Source: Gemmatimonadota bacterium (GTDB lineage: Bacteria > Gemmatimonadota > Gemmatimonadetes > Gemmatimonadales > Gemmatimonadaceae). From it: a DNA stretch of 35,188 nt. The stretch's first letter is position 1. Each line of letters opens with the position of its first letter. A program made the translations under genes and the position numbers. The stretch covers positions 1 through 35,188 of the forward strand of contig JANYKA010000156.1 in the NCBI GenBank assembly GCA_025358315.1, given 5' to 3'. The notes under the pieces were generated by a model. That model was not told the DNA's origin. It worked only from the letters and a program-made list of their open reading frames with translations, and ran no database searches. This document shows positions 1-34,890 of the stretch, in pieces.

Positions 1-42
1 ACCAGTCTCGCACTCAGCACTCATACTCCCACTCAACACTCA
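1..42. repeat. Family 1 palindromic element, copy 1: L-end fragment, truncated by the window start
   Basis: accagtctcgcactcagcactcatactcccactcaacactca matches the outer arm of the other copies. Confidence 0.88.
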
Positions 43-882
43 GCTCTTGTACACCCGGAGGAGTCCAGCAAATTCGGAAGCCCCCAACACCTCCGGCCGT
101 AACGTCGGTTCAATTCCGGCTCGTTCTAACAAGCCAGCCGCCGCCACTGCATCCAACTTCCAATATTCCCGCACCACCCGAATCATCTGCTTCCGGCGAA
201 ATCCGAACGCGCCGATCACCATCGCGCGAAACGCTGCTTCTTCGTCGGCGGTAATCAACGGAGTGTCGAGCGGAGTAATGCGCAGCACGGCACTCTCCAC
301 CGATGGCACCGGCACAAACGCACCGGCCGCAACACGAAAGAGCAGCTCGGCCCGCGCCACCGCTTGCACATTCACCGACAATGCGCCGTAGGCCTCACTC
401 CCGGCCGTCGCGACGACACGTTCGGCGACCTCGCGCTGCACGAGATACACGGCCCTGAGCGGCCGAGGGCGCTGGAGCGCGTGAAAAATAATTGGCGTAG
501 TAATGTTGTACGGCACATTCCCGACGAGCAGAAACGGCCCGCCGGCGGCGGCGGCCAGATCGACTTCGAGCACATCATTCTGAATGACTTGCACGCGCGC
601 GTCACCGGCGTACTTCGCGGCGAGCATTGGCGCGAGATCGCGATCGAGCTCAATCGCGATCAATCGCCCGCAGCGCGAGAGCAACTGCTCGGTGAGCGAT
701 CCGCGCCCTGGGCCAATCTCGACGACCGTATCAGTCGGCGCGATGTCCAACGCGTCGGCAATGCGACCAAGTATCCGCGGGTCAGTAAGAAAGTGTTGGC
801 CGAGCCGCTTGCGGGCGTGCGGGAATTTCTCTTTCGGCGTTTTTGGTTCGGGTGCTTCCCTTCTTCCCTGGCGACGGCTCAC
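40..882 (-). CDS. rsmA: 16S rRNA (adenine1518/1519-N6)-dimethyltransferase RsmA/KsgA
   Basis: Translation has GQHFLTD, VVEIGPGRGSLTEQLL and NVPYNITTPI motifs typical of KsgA; stop TGA at 40-42 (minus). Confidence 0.96.
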   Translation of the reverse strand: MSRRQGRREAPEPKTPKEKFPHARKRLGQHFLTDPRILGRIADALDIAPTDTVVEIGPGRGSLTEQLLSRCGRLIAIELDRDLAPMLAAKYAGDARVQVIQNDVLEVDLAAAAGGPFLLVGNVPYNITTPIIFHALQRPRPLRAVYLVQREVAERVVATAGSEAYGALSVNVQAVARAELLFRVAAGAFVPVPSVESAVLRITPLDTPLITADEEAAFRAMVIGAFGFRRKQMIRVVREYWKLDAVAAAGLLERAGIEPTLRPEVLGASEFAGLLRVYKS

Positions 883-12607: not shown

Positions 12608-12963
12608 GATGAGTGTTGAGTGGGAGAATGAGTGCTGAGTGCGAGACTAGTGGGAGAAAGGCGTGGGAGAGGAGTGGGAGACGGTAGTGGGAGAGCGCCC
12701 GGGATAGGCTGGTTTCTCTCTCCCACTCGTCTCCCACTCCCTCCCACTCAATGCCTCAGTGAAGCCCGTTGCCTCCGGCCATAGACAGAGGCTTATAGAT
12801 CCGGAGCCCCCCGCACAGAACTGTCGTGCCCCGCCGAACGAGTGCGAGAGAGCACCAGCCCACCCCCCAGAAGCTCTCCCACTACCGTCTCCCACTCCTC
12901 TCCCACTCCCGTCTCCCACCAGTCTCGCACTCAGCACTCCTACTCCCACTCAGCACTCGCACT
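12608..12963. repeat. Family 1 (GTGGGAG) palindromic element, copy 2: L arm about 12608-12696, R arm about 12873-12963, structured non-coding loop
   Basis: Reverse complement of atgagtgttgagtgggagaatgagtgctgagtgcgagactagtgggagaaaggcgtgggagaggagtgggagacggtagtgggagagc matches the right arm gctctcccactaccgtctcccactcctctcccac...tcgcactcagcactcctactcccactcagcactc almost throughout. Confidence 0.93.
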
Positions 12964-15900: not shown

Positions 15901-16427
15901 CTGAGCGGGCGATTGCCTGGACCGAAGCCCCGGCGACAATCAGCGAATTGTCGAAGCAACGTTTCCGGTGGTCGTTCGGCACGCTGCAATGCGCGTGGAA
16001 ACACAAGAATGCGCTCTTCCGTCCGAAGTTTGGCACGCTGGGGTTCGTCGCACTCCCGAACACCTGGCTCTTTCAGTTAATCCTGACAGCACTCTCACCG
16101 CTCGCCGACCTGATGTTCCTCTGGGGGTTGCTCTCCGTCTGGCTGACATTTAAATCGCACGGTCGGAATTACGCGGTCACTGATCTCGAACAGATCATGT
16201 TGTTCTACGCGATTTTTCTTGTGACCGACTGGTTCGGCGCGCTGATCGCATTTATGATGGAGCCCGACGAAGAACGGGCCCTCACCTGGCTCATCGTGCT
16301 GCAGCGCTTTGCCTACCGTCAGATTATGTACTCGGTCGTCGTGCGGAGCTTTATTGCGGCGATTCGCGGACGCGTCGTCGGGTGGGGTCGTCTCGACCGT
16401 AAAGCCACCGTGGAGCTCCCCGCGTGA
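12981..16427 (+). CDS. membrane protein fusing GH18-like glycosidase, polysaccharide deacetylase (NodB) and processive GT2 glycosyltransferase
   Basis: GH18-like GITVDFEEVPDD; NodB ALTFDDGPDAKYTNDIL and HEIGNHTYTHPNL; GT2 SIIVPAYREERVI, ALDADTQF, EDQDLTIRI, QRFRW; several TM segments. Confidence 0.92.
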   Translation: MLQEQSIFLDPSGRRWRAIRRATVAIGVLTTLVGLGLVITFLIPPILPKLQAAKKAVSITKPKRTIASTRLEAQQAAARAQMTAALTRSAPPKSIRAERLPIIKNRAVETIPATKKIPPNGQRPGIVAGFYVDWQDNSFASFSAHAKDLDWVICECAFITAGGDSLNLRLDNKVPYFADQLPEKDRPRVFMMVSNVDYGTGVFDAKRVRKLLASPESRQRGALQLVRAAQKFGLAGITVDFEEVPDDLHGAMVLFLTALRDGLHPGGRLLTMAVSVSADSTQVRDYANVNDYLFLMLYDEHYNNGDPGPVASQGWFTAKTKQLLSWMPPSKAILALGAYGYHWDDHTGKLTGVQSTFQETMQHARQNNANIQFDSLSLNPYIRWSDPDHVDHVIWFLDGVTAWNQWRAGNQLHAAGVAIWRLGDEDPSLWSALSNDVDKVQPSVLEPIPPGYDVQFDGIGEILRVTHRPGAGVRVLSADSTSGLITHEQITQIPSPWVVQRFGASDSTKIALTFDDGPDAKYTNDILDTLRSRNVKATFFVIGRQADEYPGILRRIVREGHEIGNHTYTHPNLALTNPFVARLEVVANGRLIETIINRRTSLFRPPYFGDASPTTADELVPVGMVSDLGYLTVGVRIDSDDWRITNKDSILQHTLDEAYNGNVVLLHDSGGDRRGTVAILGTLIDSLRARGLTLVLVSDLAGITRDEIMPVIASRTAFEHVADVIAFTFIGLLDWGLYWIFLVAVVLAIGRLLFIISLAAIQRFLKKKESSAPAFTPAVSIIVPAYREERVIVHTVKSLLAQSYSGTMEIIVVDDGSPDATYDEARRAFGNEPRVTVLTKPNGGKASALNYGIASAQHEIIIALDADTQFEPQTVGELVKPLANPAVGAVAGNAKVGNRINLVTRWQALEYVTSQNLDRRAFALLDCITVIPGAVGAWRRTALLEAGGFTTDTLAEDQDLTIRIRKLGHSIGFAERAIAWTEAPATISELSKQRFRWSFGTLQCAWKHKNALFRPKFGTLGFVALPNTWLFQLILTALSPLADLMFLWGLLSVWLTFKSHGRNYAVTDLEQIMLFYAIFLVTDWFGALIAFMMEPDEERALTWLIVLQRFAYRQIMYSVVVRSFIAAIRGRVVGWGRLDRKATVELPA

Positions 16428-18985
16428 AACGTTGGCGCAAGACGCTTGGTGCATCGATCGCACTCACGATCTTTGCAATCGCGCTCTATTCCCTGCGCAA
16501 GGAACTCGCCGGCTATAATTTTGGCCAGGTGCGCGACGCGCTCGACACTGTGTCGCGGACCAATCTCCTCCAGGCTATTGGCTACACCGCCTGCGGATAC
16601 CTCGCGCTCATCCTGTACGATGCGCTCGCCCTCCGCTACGTCAAACGCACGCTCCCGGCGCGCCGCGTGGCGTTCGTTGGTTTCGTTTCATACGCGATGT
16701 CGAACATGCTCGGCTTCCCGCTCCTGCTCGGCGGCGGCCTGCGCTATCGCTTCTACAATGCGTGGGGATTATCGACCGCCGAGATCGCGCTGACCATCGC
16801 GTTCAACAGCGTGACATTCTGGCTGGGCGTCGTCGGGCTCGCCGGGCTCGCCCTCGTGCTGCAACCAGTGGCCGCACACACCGCGCTCCCACTCCTCACG
16901 TCCGGCACGCTCTATGGCTTGGGCGTCGCGATGCTGTTGGCCGTCGCGGCATATTTGTTCGCCGCGGCATTTGTGCGCCGTTCACTGCATTTCCGCGATT
17001 GGGAATTCGAACTTCCGTCAGCGGGGCTCGCGCTGAGCCAGGTGCTCGTGAGTTCGCTCGACTGGCTCTTTGCCGCCGCCGTCCTCTGGGCGCTGCTGCC
17101 ATCGAACACACCGCAACTCACCTTCGCGGCTTTTCTCACGGCATTCCTCCTCGGTCAAGTGCTTGGATTGGTGAGCAACGTGCCGGGAGGCCTCGGCGTG
17201 TTCGAGCTGGTGATGCTCTCCCTGCTCCCGCCGTCGACCATTTCGCGCATATCGCTCGTTGGCGTGCTGATGCTGTACAGGGTGATTTACTATTTAATGC
17301 CGCTGGCGATTGCCGCGGCAATGCTGGCGACCCACGAACTGACCCGCGGAAAAACGCGTGTCGCCCGTGCGGCCCGCGCCGCCAGTTCGTGGGTGCCGGG
17401 CGTCGCACCAATTATTCTGTCGATCTCGACATTCATCGGCGGGATGATTCTGCTGCTCTCCGGTGCGACCCCGGCCCTCCCCGGCCGCCTGCGGTTGGTT
17501 TCGCAGCTCGTTCCACTGACGGTCATTGAGTCGTCGCATTTTATCGGCAGCCTCACCGGCGCCGCTCTGCTGGTGCTGGCCCGCGGACTCGGTCGCCGAC
17601 TCGACGCGGCGTACTACCTCACGGTCGGCGCGCTCGCGATCGGCATTATCGCATCGCTCGGCAAGGGATTCGATTACGAAGAAGCGATCGCCCTGACGTT
17701 GATTCTCATCGCATTGCTGCCGGCCCGCCGGCACTTCTATCGCCGCACGTCATTCACTGCTGAAGTATTCACGCCCAGTTGGGTGTTGATGGCTGGTGTC
17801 GCGGTTGGTGCGAGCGTCTGGCTCGGCGTGTTCGCATATCAGTATGTGGATTACTCAAACGATCTCTGGTGGCGATTCGCACTACGCGGCGATGCACCGC
17901 GTTTTCTGCGCGCCACAGTTGGCGCGAGTGTCCTGCTCGGTATGTTCGCGTTGTTCCGACTTCTACGGCCGGCGATTCCGGATCCGGCCCTGCCCGATGC
18001 CGCCACGCTCGAGCGCGTGAAACCCATCGTGCGTGCATCGCCGGATACGGGCGCCAACCTCGCGCTCGTCGGCGACAAGTCGCTCCTGTTCAGCGCCAAC
18101 GCCGATGCCTTCGTGATGTACGGCGTCGAAGGGCGCAGCTTTGTCTCGATGGGCGACCCAGTCGGCGCGCCAAACGAACGGCAGGAACTCGCGTGGCAGT
18201 TCCGCGAACTCGCCGACCGCCACGATGCGTGGACGGTGTTCTACCAAGTGCGCAAGCACAATCTTCCCCTCTATCTCGACCTCGGCCTGTCGATGCTGAA
18301 GCTCGGCGAAGAGGCGCATGTGCCGTTGCGTGATTTTTCGCTTGACGGCGGTTCGCGCAAAGGGCTGCGACGGATGATGAAGAACGTGGATAAGGCCGGC
18401 TGCACGTTCGACATTGTCGCTGAGCAGGACGTCCCCGCTCTGCTGCCGCGCTTCCGGGCGATTTCCGACGAATGGCTCGCGGCCAAACGCACCCGCGAAA
18501 AGGGATTCTCGCTCGGCTATTGGAACGACGGCTATATGACGATGGCCCCGGTCGCCGTCGTGCGCTGCGGCGGCGAGATCGTCGCCTTCGCTAATCTCTG
18601 GGAAGGCGCGGGCCGCGAAGAACTTTCGGTTGACCTGATGCGCTACGGCTCCGGGGCACCCGATGGCGTGATGGAATATTTATTTGTGCAACTGATGCTG
18701 TGGGGACGCGACGCCGGATACGGCAACTTCAATCTCGGGATGGCTCCGCTCGCTGGACTGGAGAACCGTCAACTCGCGCCAATTTGGAATCGCGTCGGAG
18801 CGCTGCTCTTCAGGCACGCCGAGAATTTTTATAATTTTCAGGGGCTGCGGACGTACAAAGAAAAATTCGATCCGGTGTGGGAGCCGCGGTATCTAGCGTC
18901 ACCTGGGGGGTTTGCGTTGCCGATCATTCTTACAAATGTGTCGACGTTGGTGAGTCGGGGATTGAGAGGAGCTGTGGGTCGATAA
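16424..18985 (+). CDS. mprF: bifunctional lysylphosphatidylglycerol flippase/synthetase MprF-like
   Basis: Multi-TM N-terminus plus C-terminal domain with GNFNLGMAPLAGLENRQLAPIWNRVGALLFRHAENFYNFQGLRTYKEKFDPVWEPRYLA; 4-nt overlap with the upstream gene. Confidence 0.93.
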   Translation: MKRWRKTLGASIALTIFAIALYSLRKELAGYNFGQVRDALDTVSRTNLLQAIGYTACGYLALILYDALALRYVKRTLPARRVAFVGFVSYAMSNMLGFPLLLGGGLRYRFYNAWGLSTAEIALTIAFNSVTFWLGVVGLAGLALVLQPVAAHTALPLLTSGTLYGLGVAMLLAVAAYLFAAAFVRRSLHFRDWEFELPSAGLALSQVLVSSLDWLFAAAVLWALLPSNTPQLTFAAFLTAFLLGQVLGLVSNVPGGLGVFELVMLSLLPPSTISRISLVGVLMLYRVIYYLMPLAIAAAMLATHELTRGKTRVARAARAASSWVPGVAPIILSISTFIGGMILLLSGATPALPGRLRLVSQLVPLTVIESSHFIGSLTGAALLVLARGLGRRLDAAYYLTVGALAIGIIASLGKGFDYEEAIALTLILIALLPARRHFYRRTSFTAEVFTPSWVLMAGVAVGASVWLGVFAYQYVDYSNDLWWRFALRGDAPRFLRATVGASVLLGMFALFRLLRPAIPDPALPDAATLERVKPIVRASPDTGANLALVGDKSLLFSANADAFVMYGVEGRSFVSMGDPVGAPNERQELAWQFRELADRHDAWTVFYQVRKHNLPLYLDLGLSMLKLGEEAHVPLRDFSLDGGSRKGLRRMMKNVDKAGCTFDIVAEQDVPALLPRFRAISDEWLAAKRTREKGFSLGYWNDGYMTMAPVAVVRCGGEIVAFANLWEGAGREELSVDLMRYGSGAPDGVMEYLFVQLMLWGRDAGYGNFNLGMAPLAGLENRQLAPIWNRVGALLFRHAENFYNFQGLRTYKEKFDPVWEPRYLASPGGFALPIILTNVSTLVSRGLRGAVGR

Positions 18986-18986
18986 A

Positions 18987-19095
18987 GCGAGTGGTGAGTG
19001 GGAGTAGGAGTGCTGAGTGCGAGACTAGTGGGAGAGAGGAGTGGGAGAGGCGTGGGAGACGGTAGTGGGAGATGAGTGGGAGACTGGAGTGGGCG
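18987..19095. repeat. Family 1 element, copy 3: R-type arm
   Basis: gcgagtggtgagtgggagtaggagtgctgagtgcgagactagtgggagagaggagtgggagaggcgtgggagacggtagtgggagatgag; inverted partner at 19977-20066. Confidence 0.92.
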
Positions 19096-19097
19096 AC

Positions 19098-19847
19098 TTA
19101 CGGATTCACTGCTAGCTGAAATCGCGCCGCCAGCACTCCTGAAGAAATCTCACTGCTCGTCGTACTGTTCACTGCGTCGATCGTTTGGATGTAAAACCGG
19201 TAGGTTCCCGCCACCGTCGGTGTGCCTAATAGCACACCCCGCCCCGAAATTGAAATTCCTGGCGGTAGTGTTCCCGATGCCAACGCCCATCGATATGACG
19301 GCGTACCGCCGCCGGTGATAATTGACGCGGCGTACGAAGCACCAACTTTGCCGGTCGGCAGGTAGTCAATGTGCTGGTTGGTCAGCCCGGCACTCGCACA
19401 CGGGTTGAACGCGGCCGGGTTGCTGCTGCAGGTGCTGGTCAAGTCGATCGCTACCCGACCGGAGCGAACTGTGCCGTGGTCGTCATTGACGTCAACGAAC
19501 AACGTGTATGTCCCCTGTCGTAGCGTGGTCGACCGACCCGTGACGTAGCCCTGCAGCGAGTTGATGGCGATAACGGGGTGAGGCTGCGCGGACCCCGGTG
19601 TCAACGTCCACGTGTAACCGGAGAGCACTTGGCCACCAGTTGCCACGATGGTGAGCGGATCAACATGGCTGAACGCGCCTCCATTCAGATCGATTTGACC
19701 GTACACAACCTGACCGGGAAAAATCGCCAGCGTGCTGGCCGTCTCAACGACAGGAATATCCACTGTCGGGATCAAATTCGGACAGCTCGTGAGACATAAA
19801 AGGCAGACAGTTCCAAGTACGCGAATGGCGCCTGAAGTTCTGATCAT
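19098..19847 (-). CDS. putative lipoprotein with Ig-like (He_PIG-type) domain
   Basis: Signal peptide with lipobox-like LTSC (MIRTSGAIRVLGTVCLLCLTSC); GTPSYRWALASGTLPPGISISGRGVLLGTPTVAGTYRFYIQTID resembles putative-Ig repeats. Start set at the internal Met of ORF 19098..19874. Confidence 0.7.
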   Translation of the reverse strand: MIRTSGAIRVLGTVCLLCLTSCPNLIPTVDIPVVETASTLAIFPGQVVYGQIDLNGGAFSHVDPLTIVATGGQVLSGYTWTLTPGSAQPHPVIAINSLQGYVTGRSTTLRQGTYTLFVDVNDDHGTVRSGRVAIDLTSTCSSNPAAFNPCASAGLTNQHIDYLPTGKVGASYAASIITGGGTPSYRWALASGTLPPGISISGRGVLLGTPTVAGTYRFYIQTIDAVNSTTSSEISSGVLAARFQLAVNP

Positions 19848-19976
19848 GGCTTTTTCTCCCGGAGTTTCTGACACTCAAGACTGCGGCAGTAGCCTCTCGC
19901 TTGTCAATCTGCCACCGGAGAGAGCCTCGTGAGTATGCGAGAGTGCGAGCGAGTGCGAGCGAGAAACAACAGCTAC

Positions 19977-20066
19977 ACTCTCCCACTACCGTCTCCCACG
20001 CCTCTCCCACTCCCGTCTCCCACCAGTCTCGCACTCAGCACTCCTACTCCCACTCAACACTCATCA
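19977..20066. repeat. Family 1 element, copy 3: L-type arm (inverted relative to 18987-19095)
   Basis: ctctcccactaccgtctcccacgcctctcccactcccgtctcccaccagtctcgcactcagcactcctactcccactcaacactcatca; near-perfect reverse complement of the left arm. Confidence 0.92.
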
Positions 20067-20831
20067 GTTGTTCCCCAAACTCCACGCCACCGCCCGCAGC
20101 ACAAACCCTCCTGCCAAAAGAATATTCCGCATCGAATGCCCTCCCCACGGCACCCACCACTTCTCAATTCTCGCCCCACCCGCCGCCATCAGAGCCGAAT
20201 CCGCCGTGCGATAGCGATCATCCGTCCCCCGCACAATCGCGATGCGCACCTGCGCCGGAATCGCCCGAATATTCTCGGCGATCGAAAAACTGCCGGGCTC
20301 CGTCGGTTCACCCGACATCGCCAAGTCCGCGGCCGAAATGCGCAGATGCCCCCGCGCACCGGGGCTTATCAGCAACACGCCCTTGAAGTGCGCCACATCG
20401 GCGCGCGATGCGATGTACGTAGCGACCTCGGCGCCAATGGAATGGCCACCAACGATCATCGGCAGCGTATCGGCGCCAAGTTCAACGCGAACGCGCTTTA
20501 GTATAATCGTCACACTATCCGTCAACGCTTTGCCACGCCTGAGCGTGTCGTCGGGCAGTCGATTGAAATACTTTTTTACATCAAAGCCCACGACGTTGTA
20601 ACTGCTCGCCGCCAGCCGCTTGGCGAGCTCTTGGTGCGCACCCCAGAAGCCGAGGTCGTTGCCAAGAAAAAAGATGATCGCTTTGGCGTGCGACGGCCCG
20701 TCAACCGCCGGATAGAAAAAGAACTCCGACGTCGCCAGTGAGGCGTCGTGTGGCGAATACGGCGCCGCGTCCGCCTTGAAGCATCCGGCGGCAGCGAGCG
20801 CGAACCCAACCGCGAAAACTCCTCTCCTCAT
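20064..20831 (-). CDS. VirJ/AcvB-like alpha/beta-hydrolase family protein
   Basis: AIIFFLGNDLGFWGAHQELAKRLAASSYNVVGFDVKKYF, PMIVGGHSIGAEVATYIAS, RGTDDRYRTADSALMAAGGARIEKW. Signal-like N-terminus; start uncertain within ORF 20064..20843. Confidence 0.78.
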   Translation of the reverse strand: MRRGVFAVGFALAAAGCFKADAAPYSPHDASLATSEFFFYPAVDGPSHAKAIIFFLGNDLGFWGAHQELAKRLAASSYNVVGFDVKKYFNRLPDDTLRRGKALTDSVTIILKRVRVELGADTLPMIVGGHSIGAEVATYIASRADVAHFKGVLLISPGARGHLRISAADLAMSGEPTEPGSFSIAENIRAIPAQVRIAIVRGTDDRYRTADSALMAAGGARIEKWWVPWGGHSMRNILLAGGFVLRAVAWSLGNN

Positions 20832-21169
20832 CCCGGCGGCCAATGCATCTTCCGGCCACCCAACACGTGGACGTGCAGGTGACTCACACTCTGCCCGCCA
20901 TCAGCGTTGGTGTTGACCACCGTGCGAAACCCGCTGGCGTTGATCCCCTCCGCGGCAGCGACATCACGGGCCATCAGCATCATCTCGCCAATCAATGTCG
21001 GGTCATTCAGCTCGTTGAGCGAATCGAAATGCTCGCGCGGGATCACCAAAAAATGTTTCGGCGCCTGCGGGCTGATATCGTGAAACGCCACGCACCTCTT
21101 GCTCTCAGCAAGAAATGCCACCGGCAACTCGCCGCGCGCGATGCGGCAGAACAGACACGTATCAGCCAT
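20828..21169 (-). CDS. HIT family (HINT-type) protein
   Basis: CLFCRIARGELP...HFLVIPREHFDSLNEL...QSVSHLHVHVLGGRKMHWPPG histidine triad. Confidence 0.95.
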   Translation of the reverse strand: MADTCLFCRIARGELPVAFLAESKRCVAFHDISPQAPKHFLVIPREHFDSLNELNDPTLIGEMMLMARDVAAAEGINASGFRTVVNTNADGGQSVSHLHVHVLGGRKMHWPPG

Positions 21170-28936: not shown

Positions 28937-28981
28937 TGAAGGCCGAGGGGGCGATTTGGATTACGGGGCGGACGGCGGGCA
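28937..28981 (+). repeat. Family 4 repeat, single dispersed unit
   Basis: tgaaggccgagggggcgatttggattacggggcggacggcgggca resembles the 31788-31960 units; core GGATTACGGGGCGGACGGCGG is shared. Confidence 0.82.
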
Positions 28982-30365: not shown

Positions 30366-30490
30366 GCGGGTCGGGCTCGGGGAGCTCGCTTTGACGGGCC
30401 TATCGCTTACACGCATCGAGCCTCGCCCTCAAGGCGAGTCTCGCGCTACGCGATGGGCCCGTCGGCGCGAGCCCCCCGAACCCGCCCTGC
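30366..30490. repeat. Family 5 long inverted repeat with a nested hairpin
   Basis: 30366-30406 pairs with 30450-30490 (about 41-nt arms, roughly 30 matches); nested stem ctcgcc/ggcgag at 30422-30438. Confidence 0.82.
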
Positions 30491-31785: not shown

Positions 31786-31970
31786 TGAAAGGGCTTGGGG
31801 GATTACGGGGCGGACGGCGGACAGGGAGTCACCTATTGGTCGAGTTTTTTGGGAAAGGGCTTGGGGGATTACTGGGCGGACGGCGGACAGTGATTCACTG
31901 ATGGGTCGGGGTGGTGCGAAAGGTCGAGGGGGGATTACTGGGCGGACGGCGGTCAGCGGATTCGGATGGC
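31786..31970 (+). repeat. Family 4 tandem array, left arm (three units at about 31788, 31854 and 31919; period 66 then 65 bp)
   Basis: Core gggggattac(g/t)gggcggacggcgg(a/t)cag repeated three times, preceded by aaagg(g/t)c. Confidence 0.95.
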
Positions 31971-32016
31971 GTTGAAATGATTGTGTCGAATGCGATTCAC
32001 GATACGATCGTGCGGG

Positions 32017-32463
32017 ATGAGGGATTCTGTTTTTGAAGGGCAATATGAAAAGTGGGCGGCGGCGCAGCCGGAGTTGCTTCGCGCAGATATTCTGTGGGCA
32101 TTGGATTCGTACCGGCTCGCGCTCTACTTGGTGGAACTCTCGACGACTGATATGCGGCGGGCGCGCGACGGCGATCTTGCAGCCGCTCGACGGCAATTAT
32201 TGAAGGCCGTAATTTCTATCAGTGCGAATATCGCCGAGGGGTACAGTCGCCCCACAATGGCAGATCGATCGCGATTCTTCGCGTACGCATTGGGGTCCAC
32301 CAGGGAAGCCGTCACCTGGTACGCGTCCTTCCGCATTTCACTGGGCGACACAACCCTGTTCGCCCGCTACACCCACCTAGCCCGCCTCCGCCGAATCCTA
32401 ATTGCGACTCAGCGCACCCAACATTTCCATCTCCCCCCCAACACCTTCACCCCCGGGATTTAA
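32017..32463 (+). CDS. four-helix bundle protein (S23 / 23S rRNA intervening-sequence protein family, TIGR02436-like)
   Basis: LLKAVISISANIAEGYSRPTMADRSRFFAYALGSTREAVTWY matches the family signature (SIxxNIAEGxxR...FxxxALGSxxE). The ORF track begins at TTG 31981; ATG 32017 (MRDSVFEGQYEKW) is the likely start. Confidence 0.9.
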   Translation: MRDSVFEGQYEKWAAAQPELLRADILWALDSYRLALYLVELSTTDMRRARDGDLAAARRQLLKAVISISANIAEGYSRPTMADRSRFFAYALGSTREAVTWYASFRISLGDTTLFARYTHLARLRRILIATQRTQHFHLPPNTFTPGI

Positions 32464-32465
32464 AC

Positions 32466-32645
32466 GCTGTCCGCCGTCCGCTCAGTAGGCCTCCACGACC
32501 TTTCCCAGAAACCCGACCAACAAGGTGACTCCCTGTCCGCCGTCCGCTCAGTAATCCCCCGCGACCTTTCGCAGCAACCCGACCCAACAATGAATCCCTG
32601 TCCGCCGTCCGCTCAGTAATCCCCCACGACCCTCCCGCTGACTCC
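32466..32645 (-). repeat. Family 4 tandem array, right arm (three units starting 32467, 32533 and 32598; periods 66 and 65 bp), inverted relative to the left arm
   Basis: ctgtccgccgtccgctcagta repeated three times; reverse complement matches the left array. Confidence 0.95.
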
Positions 32646-33647: not shown

Positions 33648-33732
33648 GGCTTAACGTATCGAATGCCGCCCGCGAGTGCGAGATTTCCCGAATGAACTTC
33701 ACGAACCACGCATACCAGCGGGCCTGCCCAGC

Positions 33733-34656
33733 GTGACCCATTCTCCCCCACCCGTCCGCGCCCGCCCGGCGATCGCGCCCCTCGTTCTCGTGGCCGCCGT
33801 ACTCGGCATCTCGATCTCCGGCCCCCTCGTCCGGCTCTCGCATTCCGACCCGCTGGTGATCGCGCTCTGGAGAATCGGGATTTCGATTGCCATCATTTAT
33901 TCCATCCTGCTCTTCAATGGGCAATGGAAACAGTGGCGCGCCCTCTCGCGTAGCGATCTCCTCGCCGCCGTCGCCGCCGGCGGATTTCTCGCGCTGCATT
34001 TCTGGAGCTGGATTTCGTCTATCGGGATGACGTCTGTCGCGGCGAGTGTCGTGCTCGTTAATATCCATCCGATCATCGTCGTCTTTGGGTCCGCACTTTG
34101 GCTTGGGGAGAAACCCACCCGCCCCCAACTGATCGGGATTGGCGTCTCCCTGATCGGTGCCCTCATACTCGGCTACGGCGACGCCCGCGGTGCCGCTACA
34201 GTCGCCGGGTCACGGGCGCTGATGGGCGATGCACTGGCAGTCGTCGGCGCCGTAACCGTATCTGCCTACCTACTACTCGGCAGACGCGTCCGCCAGAAAC
34301 TGGATCTCTGGCCGTACGTGGGATTCGTGTATTCCGTCTGCTTTGTGATCGTACTGGCGATTGCCCTCGTGCGCGGCGTGCAAATCATCCCAACCGGAGC
34401 AACGGCACCGCGTGAGCTCGCCCTCTTCGCCGCGATGGCACTCGGCCCGATGATGTTGGGCCACACAGGATTCAATTGGGCATTACGATATTTCCCGGCC
34501 TACTTCGTCAGTCTGGCTGCGCTCTGTGAGCCGGTAGGGGCTACCATATTGGCCGCGGTGATTCCGGGGATTGCCGAAATGCCTGGGGGGCTCACCCTAA
34601 TCGGCGGGGCGGTTGTGCTTGGGGGGATTGGACTGACTGCGGGCAGGAAGAAATGA
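33733..34656 (+). CDS. EamA/DMT-superfamily transporter
   Basis: Ten-TM-like hydrophobic profile, two EamA-like halves (WRIGISIAIIYSILL..., GFNWALRYFPAYFVSLAALCEPVGATILAAVI). The ORF track begins at 33676; GTG 33733 is plausible. Confidence 0.85.
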   Translation: MTHSPPPVRARPAIAPLVLVAAVLGISISGPLVRLSHSDPLVIALWRIGISIAIIYSILLFNGQWKQWRALSRSDLLAAVAAGGFLALHFWSWISSIGMTSVAASVVLVNIHPIIVVFGSALWLGEKPTRPQLIGIGVSLIGALILGYGDARGAATVAGSRALMGDALAVVGAVTVSAYLLLGRRVRQKLDLWPYVGFVYSVCFVIVLAIALVRGVQIIPTGATAPRELALFAAMALGPMMLGHTGFNWALRYFPAYFVSLAALCEPVGATILAAVIPGIAEMPGGLTLIGGAVVLGGIGLTAGRKK

Positions 34657-34890
34657 GTGTTGAGTGGGAGTATGAGTGCTGAGTGCGAGACCAGTGGGAG
34701 AAAGGAGTGGGAGAGGAGTGGGAGAAAGTAGTGGGAGAGTGAAACCGTAGTTTCTCTCTCCCACTTATCCCCCTCTTATCTCCCACTAAACTCCCACTGA
34801 TCTCCCACTGATACCTCCCACTCCTCTCCCACTCCTTTCTCCCACTGGTCTCGCACTCAGCACTCATACTCCCACTCAGCACTCGCACTG
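34654..34890. repeat. Family 1 palindromic element, copy 4 (complete, short loop)
   Basis: Left tgagtgttgagtgggagtatgagtgctgagtgcgagaccagtgggagaaaggagtgggagaggagtgggagaaag; right ctcccactcctctcccactcctttctcccactggtctcgcactcagcactcatactcccactcagcactcgcact. Confidence 0.93.

Follow-up and report, generated by a model that had tools for sequence, protein, structure and literature searches.

The window analyzed here, 35,188 nucleotides long, is the whole of contig C184 of G000, a Gemmatimonadota MAG of 2.8 Mb in 283 contigs that is 82% complete. It carries two families of inverted repeats, one rich in GTGGGAG (family 1) and one that brackets an intact gene of the IVP/four-helix-bundle family (family 2) (Table 1). 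All four GTGGGAG loci named in a preliminary description of this DNA are present where it had placed them, and what they share exceeds the described tips: it is an arm of ~85 bp with the approximate consensus TGAGTG(T/C)TGAGTGGGAGTAGGAGTGCTGAGTGCGAGACTAGTGGGAGAAAGGAGTGGGAGAGGAGTGGGAGACGGTAGTGGGAGAG, two such arms converging on a variable center. Since the window is a complete contig, positions 1-42 represent a single cut arm. Family 1 arms are 86-95% complementary, a range that in the 12610 and 18988 pairs extends over 84-122 bp (138 and 134 bits). Elements span 197-1076 bp; the one at 34654 folds as a single hairpin of about -181 kcal/mol as RNA, and folding of the 12610 element gave -234 to -263 kcal/mol. 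An isolated imperfect palindrome at 30366-30490 (125 bp, 74 bits) is apparently unrelated to either family.

Table 1. Repeat arms and associated genes in the window
Feature	Position	Strand	Remarks
Family 1 arm cut by contig end	1..42	-	Contains the stop codon (TGA, 40-42) of rRNA adenine dimethylase gene 40..882(-)
Family 1 element, left arm	12610..12694	+	Between the rpsU side and polysaccharide deacetylase/glycosyltransferase gene 12981
Interior of 12610 element	12695..12874	.	Also found in the C19 element, whose site is unrelated
Family 1 element, right arm, inverted	12875..12959	-	
Family 1 arm	18988..19072	+	Immediately 3' of the stop codon of gene 16424..18985
Putative Ig-domain (He_PIG) lipoprotein-like gene	19098..19874	-	Enclosed by the arms of the 18988-20063 pair
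Family 1 arm, inverted	19979..20063	-	Adjoins stop codon 20064-20066 of gene 20064..20843(-)
Short single-word copy of family 2	28958..28981	+	
Family 2 arm	31796..31958	+	CGGCGGACGGCGGACAG words, ~66-bp units
Intact IVP/four-helix-bundle gene, family 2 cassette	31990..32463	+	157 aa, PF05635, TIGR02436
Family 2 arm, inverted	32465..32626	-	79% to left arm over 164 columns
34654 element, left arm	34654..34738	+	Opens with the TGA stop codon of EamA transporter gene 33676..34656
34654 element, center	34739..34800	.	
34654 element, right arm, inverted	34801..34885	-	

Across G000 there are ~30 family 1 arms at unrelated sites, with a mean identity of ~86%. They form 13 clean convergent pairs, and a few are single or contig-end arms. 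The 34654 element matches other G000 copies with Blast E-values down to 6.5e-54, which is far past chance, and the 12610 and C19 elements, at unrelated sites, are alike over their whole length, unique interior included (81% over 365 bp). The convergent arms, this common interior, and the lack of the family in most members of the genus bear out the earlier reading of a unitary, dispersed, MITE/REP-like palindrome that did not arise by low-complexity drift. The asymmetric ends it also proposed are weakly supported: a tip base (TGTTGAG versus TGCTGAG) differs between the two arms in 6/11 G000 elements and in 8/9 elements of the close relative G012, but it is swapped between orthologous 12610 copies. 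No consistent or convincing target-site duplication was found in the flanks or by comparison with empty sites. At its start, contig C26 (L006 1-333) repeats its own right flank, inverted, around the element, probably through an assembly fold-back at the palindrome; an arm swap there was set aside as an assembly artifact.

Elements fill intergenic gaps and mostly lie 0-22 nt from the adjoining stop or start codon. Family 1 tips often begin at a stop codon, their TGA being that of the neighboring gene at 34654 and at contig position 42; one arm elsewhere (L011 24-109) abuts the 3' end of an apparent tRNA gene. Gene contexts are convergent, codirectional, and divergent, the last at uvrA and rpsU/12981 (uvrA, rpsU, rodA, and accD are names that we assigned from the flanking translations, not from profile hits). 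Because contexts are mixed and include divergent gene pairs, a role as pure or bidirectional intrinsic terminators does not fit. In another member of the genus, G014 (L099-L118), GTGAACTGTTAAC and GTCTAGCGTCTG palindromes have common outer arms and different A-tract/GC-stem/T-tract centers, and these centers look like bidirectional terminators.

Comparison with relatives shows where family 1 is kept. G012, at about 87% nucleotide identity, retains the element at most G000 sites (12610, both C55 sites, C162, C181, C26, C255, C100, and C19), and the Gemmatimonadetes MAG JANYBD01, a close DNA match, contains the loci seen in G012. Almost every testable site is common to G000 and G012, and no recent movement is seen between them; at one site, a single arm in G000 (L003:1288-1371) stands against two in G012 (L051:464-674). 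In the other species of the genus, family 1 is absent or represented by weak relatives. The preliminary description had equated orthologous copies in all relatives with vertical, non-mobile inheritance; such sharing extends to the close relative, but most of the genus lacks the element. The G012 counterpart of window 18988-20063 (L054 4029-4260) is wrecked, leaving one arm and a decayed He_PIG fragment, and the neighboring LPG synthase and hydrolase genes are lost. The gap between those two genes carries GTACGTC-word repeats in both G011 (L091) and G002 (L092), which is another word family at an orthologous site.

The rpsU/12981 gap has no palindrome in G006, G007, G016, G017, G009, and G015, and in G014 and G011 it holds palindromes of wholly different words, GGCGACTGG and GATGCGGG. 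In the DNA sampled, long palindromes number 75 per Mb in G014, 31 in G011, 30 in G016, and 16 in the G000 sample, and none were found in sampled DNA of G015, G003, G006, and G008. These uneven counts indicate that part of the genus is characterized by palindromes belonging to many families.

The family 2 arms bracket an IVP gene, and family 1 has its own coding member: on contig C88 of G000 (L012, 10414-11121), an intact PF05635 (23S_rRNA_IVP) gene lies between GTGGGAG arms. A Pfam search of 18 genomes of the genus, made independently of the repeats, listed 57 PF05635 genes in 14/18 genomes (11 in G014, 10 each in G011 and G002, 7 in G009, and 4 in G000), with 0 or 1 in genomes where palindromes were not found. 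When 50 IVP genes were examined for inverted repeats within 1 kb, 40 were bracketed at ≥40 bits, compared with 2/300 random 300-bp centers. A divergent IVP clade (support, 98/94) was bracketed in 23/23 cases at ≥60 bits (median, 101), and 17 of the 27 genes outside it at ≥40 bits; canonical IVP genes without arms occur (e.g., L221 and L225).

The window IVP protein scores 49.9 bits against TIGR02436 (cut-off, 24), and its predicted model (pLDDT, 87.8) fits 2GSC (XCC0516) with a TM score of 0.86 by target length; it also fits 2RLD and, more weakly, Avd of diversity-generating retroelements (DGRs), and a canonical IVP member matches the PHROG for Avd. XCC0516, the solved IVP homologue from which 2GSC derives, is encoded by Xanthomonas. 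For the IVP protein, no catalytic site is known. Orthologous IVP pairs have dN/dS values of 0.065-0.25; the gene is under purifying selection.

Palindromes without a gene reuse the arms of IVP cassettes. Sampled DNA from four genomes yielded 44 long palindromes, of which 23 match some IVP arm at ≥45 bits; the best match lies in the same genome for 21 of these 23, 3 of which are cassettes themselves, and shuffled arms gave 0 matches. G000 family 1 palindromes match the C88 cassette, and in G014 the arms of L262 resemble palindrome L109:808, those of L263 the GAACTGTTAACTACTAACTG family, and those of L248 both L108:3936 and L114:8791. Family 2 recurs as short word copies at about eight sites, one of them in the window. 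About half of the sampled palindromes, the abundant G014 family GTCTAGCGTCTG among them, have no matching IVP arm or gene, so either partner genes were missed or some families have lost theirs. Origin of the gene-less palindromes as deleted IVP cassettes was rejected, as their interiors hold no IVP remnant.

Filled and empty versions of one site are seen at rodA/accD. Seven species have a cassette there, directly 3' of the rodA stop codon and about 0.7-0.9 kb long; six copies are complete (G000, G014, G009, G016, G002, and G017), and in G011 the accD half lies on a contig end. The site is empty, with a short spacer only, in G006, G001, G005, and G015. The two arms of a cassette reach 0.73 of the maximum score against each other, compared with 0.25 between species (G016/G017 being a close exception) and 0.12 for shuffled arms. 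Arms that are alike within a cassette and unlike between species imply that the two change together. In G000, arm likeness is likewise 0.897 within and 0.863 between elements (permutation P = 0.0004); G012 has no such excess (P = 0.37).

The preliminary description had suggested looking for a trans-acting transposase with matching ends. The gene that goes with these ends is the four-helix-bundle IVP gene, and the Y1 transposase (PF01797) is absent from 18/18 genomes, with controls detected, which sets aside a RAYT/REP system. Reverse transcriptase (PF00078) was likewise missing from 17/18 genomes, G017 alone being positive, which disfavors a retro-mechanism. The mobility enzymes searched were these two. 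Loss of SbcCD as the cause of palindrome survival was rejected, as SbcD-like hits occur in all genomes, palindrome-rich and -poor. Nor did we find a match to a known RNA family (Rfam) in the window or a defense gene match in PADLOC, and an origin from phages or plasmids was rejected, as neither set gave a DNA match and nor did IMG/VR (exact pattern).

We therefore consider it fairly likely that the GTGGGAG palindromes are non-autonomous, gene-less members of a two-part element whose coding member carries the IVP gene. The complete form is a 0.4- to 0.9-kb cassette with an IVP/S23/TIGR02436 gene between inverted arms of short degenerate words; the gene-less form, dispersed in intergenic DNA, consists of an arm, a short center, and an inverted arm. 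The arm sequence is particular to each IVP gene, and the gene-less copies of a genome follow the arms of a resident IVP gene. Like its relatives XCC0516 and Avd, the IVP protein is probably a ring-forming, nucleic-acid-binding four-helix bundle, and it most likely recognizes the arms when folded, either as a DNA cruciform or as a transcribed hairpin. It would then assist host enzymes in copying arms to other places or converting them there, acting in trans on gene-less copies; the two arms of an element would then stay alike and whole families turn over between species. These data show the pairing of gene and palindromes; that the IVP protein mobilizes the palindromes is about an even bet. The system looks like a bacterial element of an unrecognized type, a repeat with a partner gene, that employs no known transposase, as far as the Y1 and reverse transcriptase searches reach.

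The main rival is that IVP is a host factor binding dispersed, non-mobile palindromes as targets for transcription termination, RNA decay, or chromosome organization. The position of elements against stop codons is consistent with this, as are the purifying selection on IVP genes and the many G014 palindromes that have an A-tract/GC-stem/T-tract center or lie between convergent genes or downstream of genes. However, elements also occur between divergent genes, sampled DNA of some same-genus genomes has no palindromes, and at a given site one family may be wholly replaced by another between species; the turnover of arms and their absence from sampled DNA of sister species argue against an essential role, and we regard this explanation as unlikely.

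It is less probable still, in our view, that the palindromes are ordinary MITEs whose DDE transposon is absent or went undetected, with IVP genes as frequent passengers. Long terminal inverted repeats, intergenic copies, and one interior copied at full length would suit such an origin, and the mobility enzymes searched were Y1 and reverse transcriptase. But arms bracket most of the examined IVP genes across many unrelated arm sequences, a passenger is hardly expected in so many families and several phyla, and there is no clear target-site duplication. Replication slippage and template switching at hairpins, with no dedicated protein and with IVP genes that tolerate or need hairpin flanks, would account for arms made of short-word repeats with varying unit number and for the likeness of arms within G000 elements and rodA cassettes. 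It fails to explain the similarity of so many arms at unrelated sites and their resemblance to those of an IVP cassette at another place in the genome, and G012 lacks the within-element coupling; we hold it to be the most doubtful of the three.

By analogy, the two-part IVP element would work like REPIN-RAYT (PMC3116915), in which a repeat-flanked gene is accompanied by genome-specific, non-autonomous intergenic inverted pairs that follow the flanks of the gene. Here, too, dispersed inverted pairs match the flanks of one resident gene, but the partner is an IVP protein instead of a Y1 tyrosine transposase, and short REPs are replaced by 50- to 170-bp arms of short words. With MITEs the palindromes share terminal inverted repeats of some length, small size, lack of coding capacity, and multiple intergenic copies; the difference is that no parent transposase (Y1 and reverse transcriptase searched) or target-site duplication was found, and where elements with these arms are coding, the gene is an IVP gene. 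Avd has the same fold as IVP and remote sequence similarity to it, and the likeness of PF05635 to Avd has been noted (PMC10053308); Avd, however, works with a reverse transcriptase, and here PF00078 was detected in one genome of 18.

The 23S rRNA intervening sequences of Leptospira and Coxiella (PMC4990558) involve the same protein family, with an S23/IVP ORF within an inverted-repeat stem; in Coxiella, GACAGAT heptamers lie upstream of the S23 ORF in that stem, and mobility, long suspected for such sequences, has been proposed (PMC4990558). Those sequences reside in rRNA and are removed by RNase III, whereas the present cassettes lie between protein genes, outside any 23S rRNA helix, and have dispersed gene-less relatives. 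The GGGNATC/STRR heptamer repeats of Xanthomonas and Nostoc (PMC4692102) are also G-rich, intergenic short-word repeats, and Xanthomonas is rich in GGGAATC words, with 70-75 convergent inverted pairs (PMC4692102); unlike the arms described here, these heptamers were reported with no partner gene and as unconnected to mobile elements. We predict that they are linked to IVP genes there. The literature we covered, which takes in few subscription papers, so that an earlier description is possible, does not link an IVP gene to dispersed palindromes.

Similar layouts occur beyond the genus. In other families of the class, inverted arms of short words reach ≥40 bits around 15/28 IVP genes, and plasmid S23/four-helix-bundle genes (cyanobacteria, Azospirillum, Riemerella, and Gemmatirosa) have arms in 10/16 cases at ≥40 bits and 14/16 at ≥30 bits, with mismatched flanks giving 3.8% and 6.3%, respectively. 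The cyanobacterial, Azospirillum, and Riemerella plasmid layouts are weaker versions of the cassette. Arms on Nostoc plasmid pNe_5 are found again at two other places, as inverted pairs lacking an IVP gene; those on a Pseudanabaena plasmid do not recur in this way.

Crystal structures of the S23/IVP family have existed since 2006, with no known function for it; where 23S intervening sequences come from, and where short-word intergenic repeats do, are two further puzzles. It is conceivable, at somewhat less than even chances, that IVP/S23 genes throughout bacteria form the coding part of a separate class of mobile element, one bounded by inverted short-word arms and spreading with no transposase or reverse transcriptase of its own. 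Such a class would be the source of gene-less palindromes and perhaps of many unexplained short-word repeats (STRR and GGGNATC), and 23S intervening sequences would be members that landed in rRNA. An IVP gene with its own inverted arms and dispersed gene-less copies would give the family a concrete, testable role and bring three puzzles into one model; if the IVP protein moves or maintains the palindromes, bacteria would have a repeat-spreading system without a recognized nuclease or transposase of its own. On cyanobacterial plasmids (L294, L298, and L303), four-helix-bundle genes lie inside CRISPR-cas operons, between cas6 and cas4 or between cas10 and cmr3, an arrangement that looks like cassette insertion between genes.
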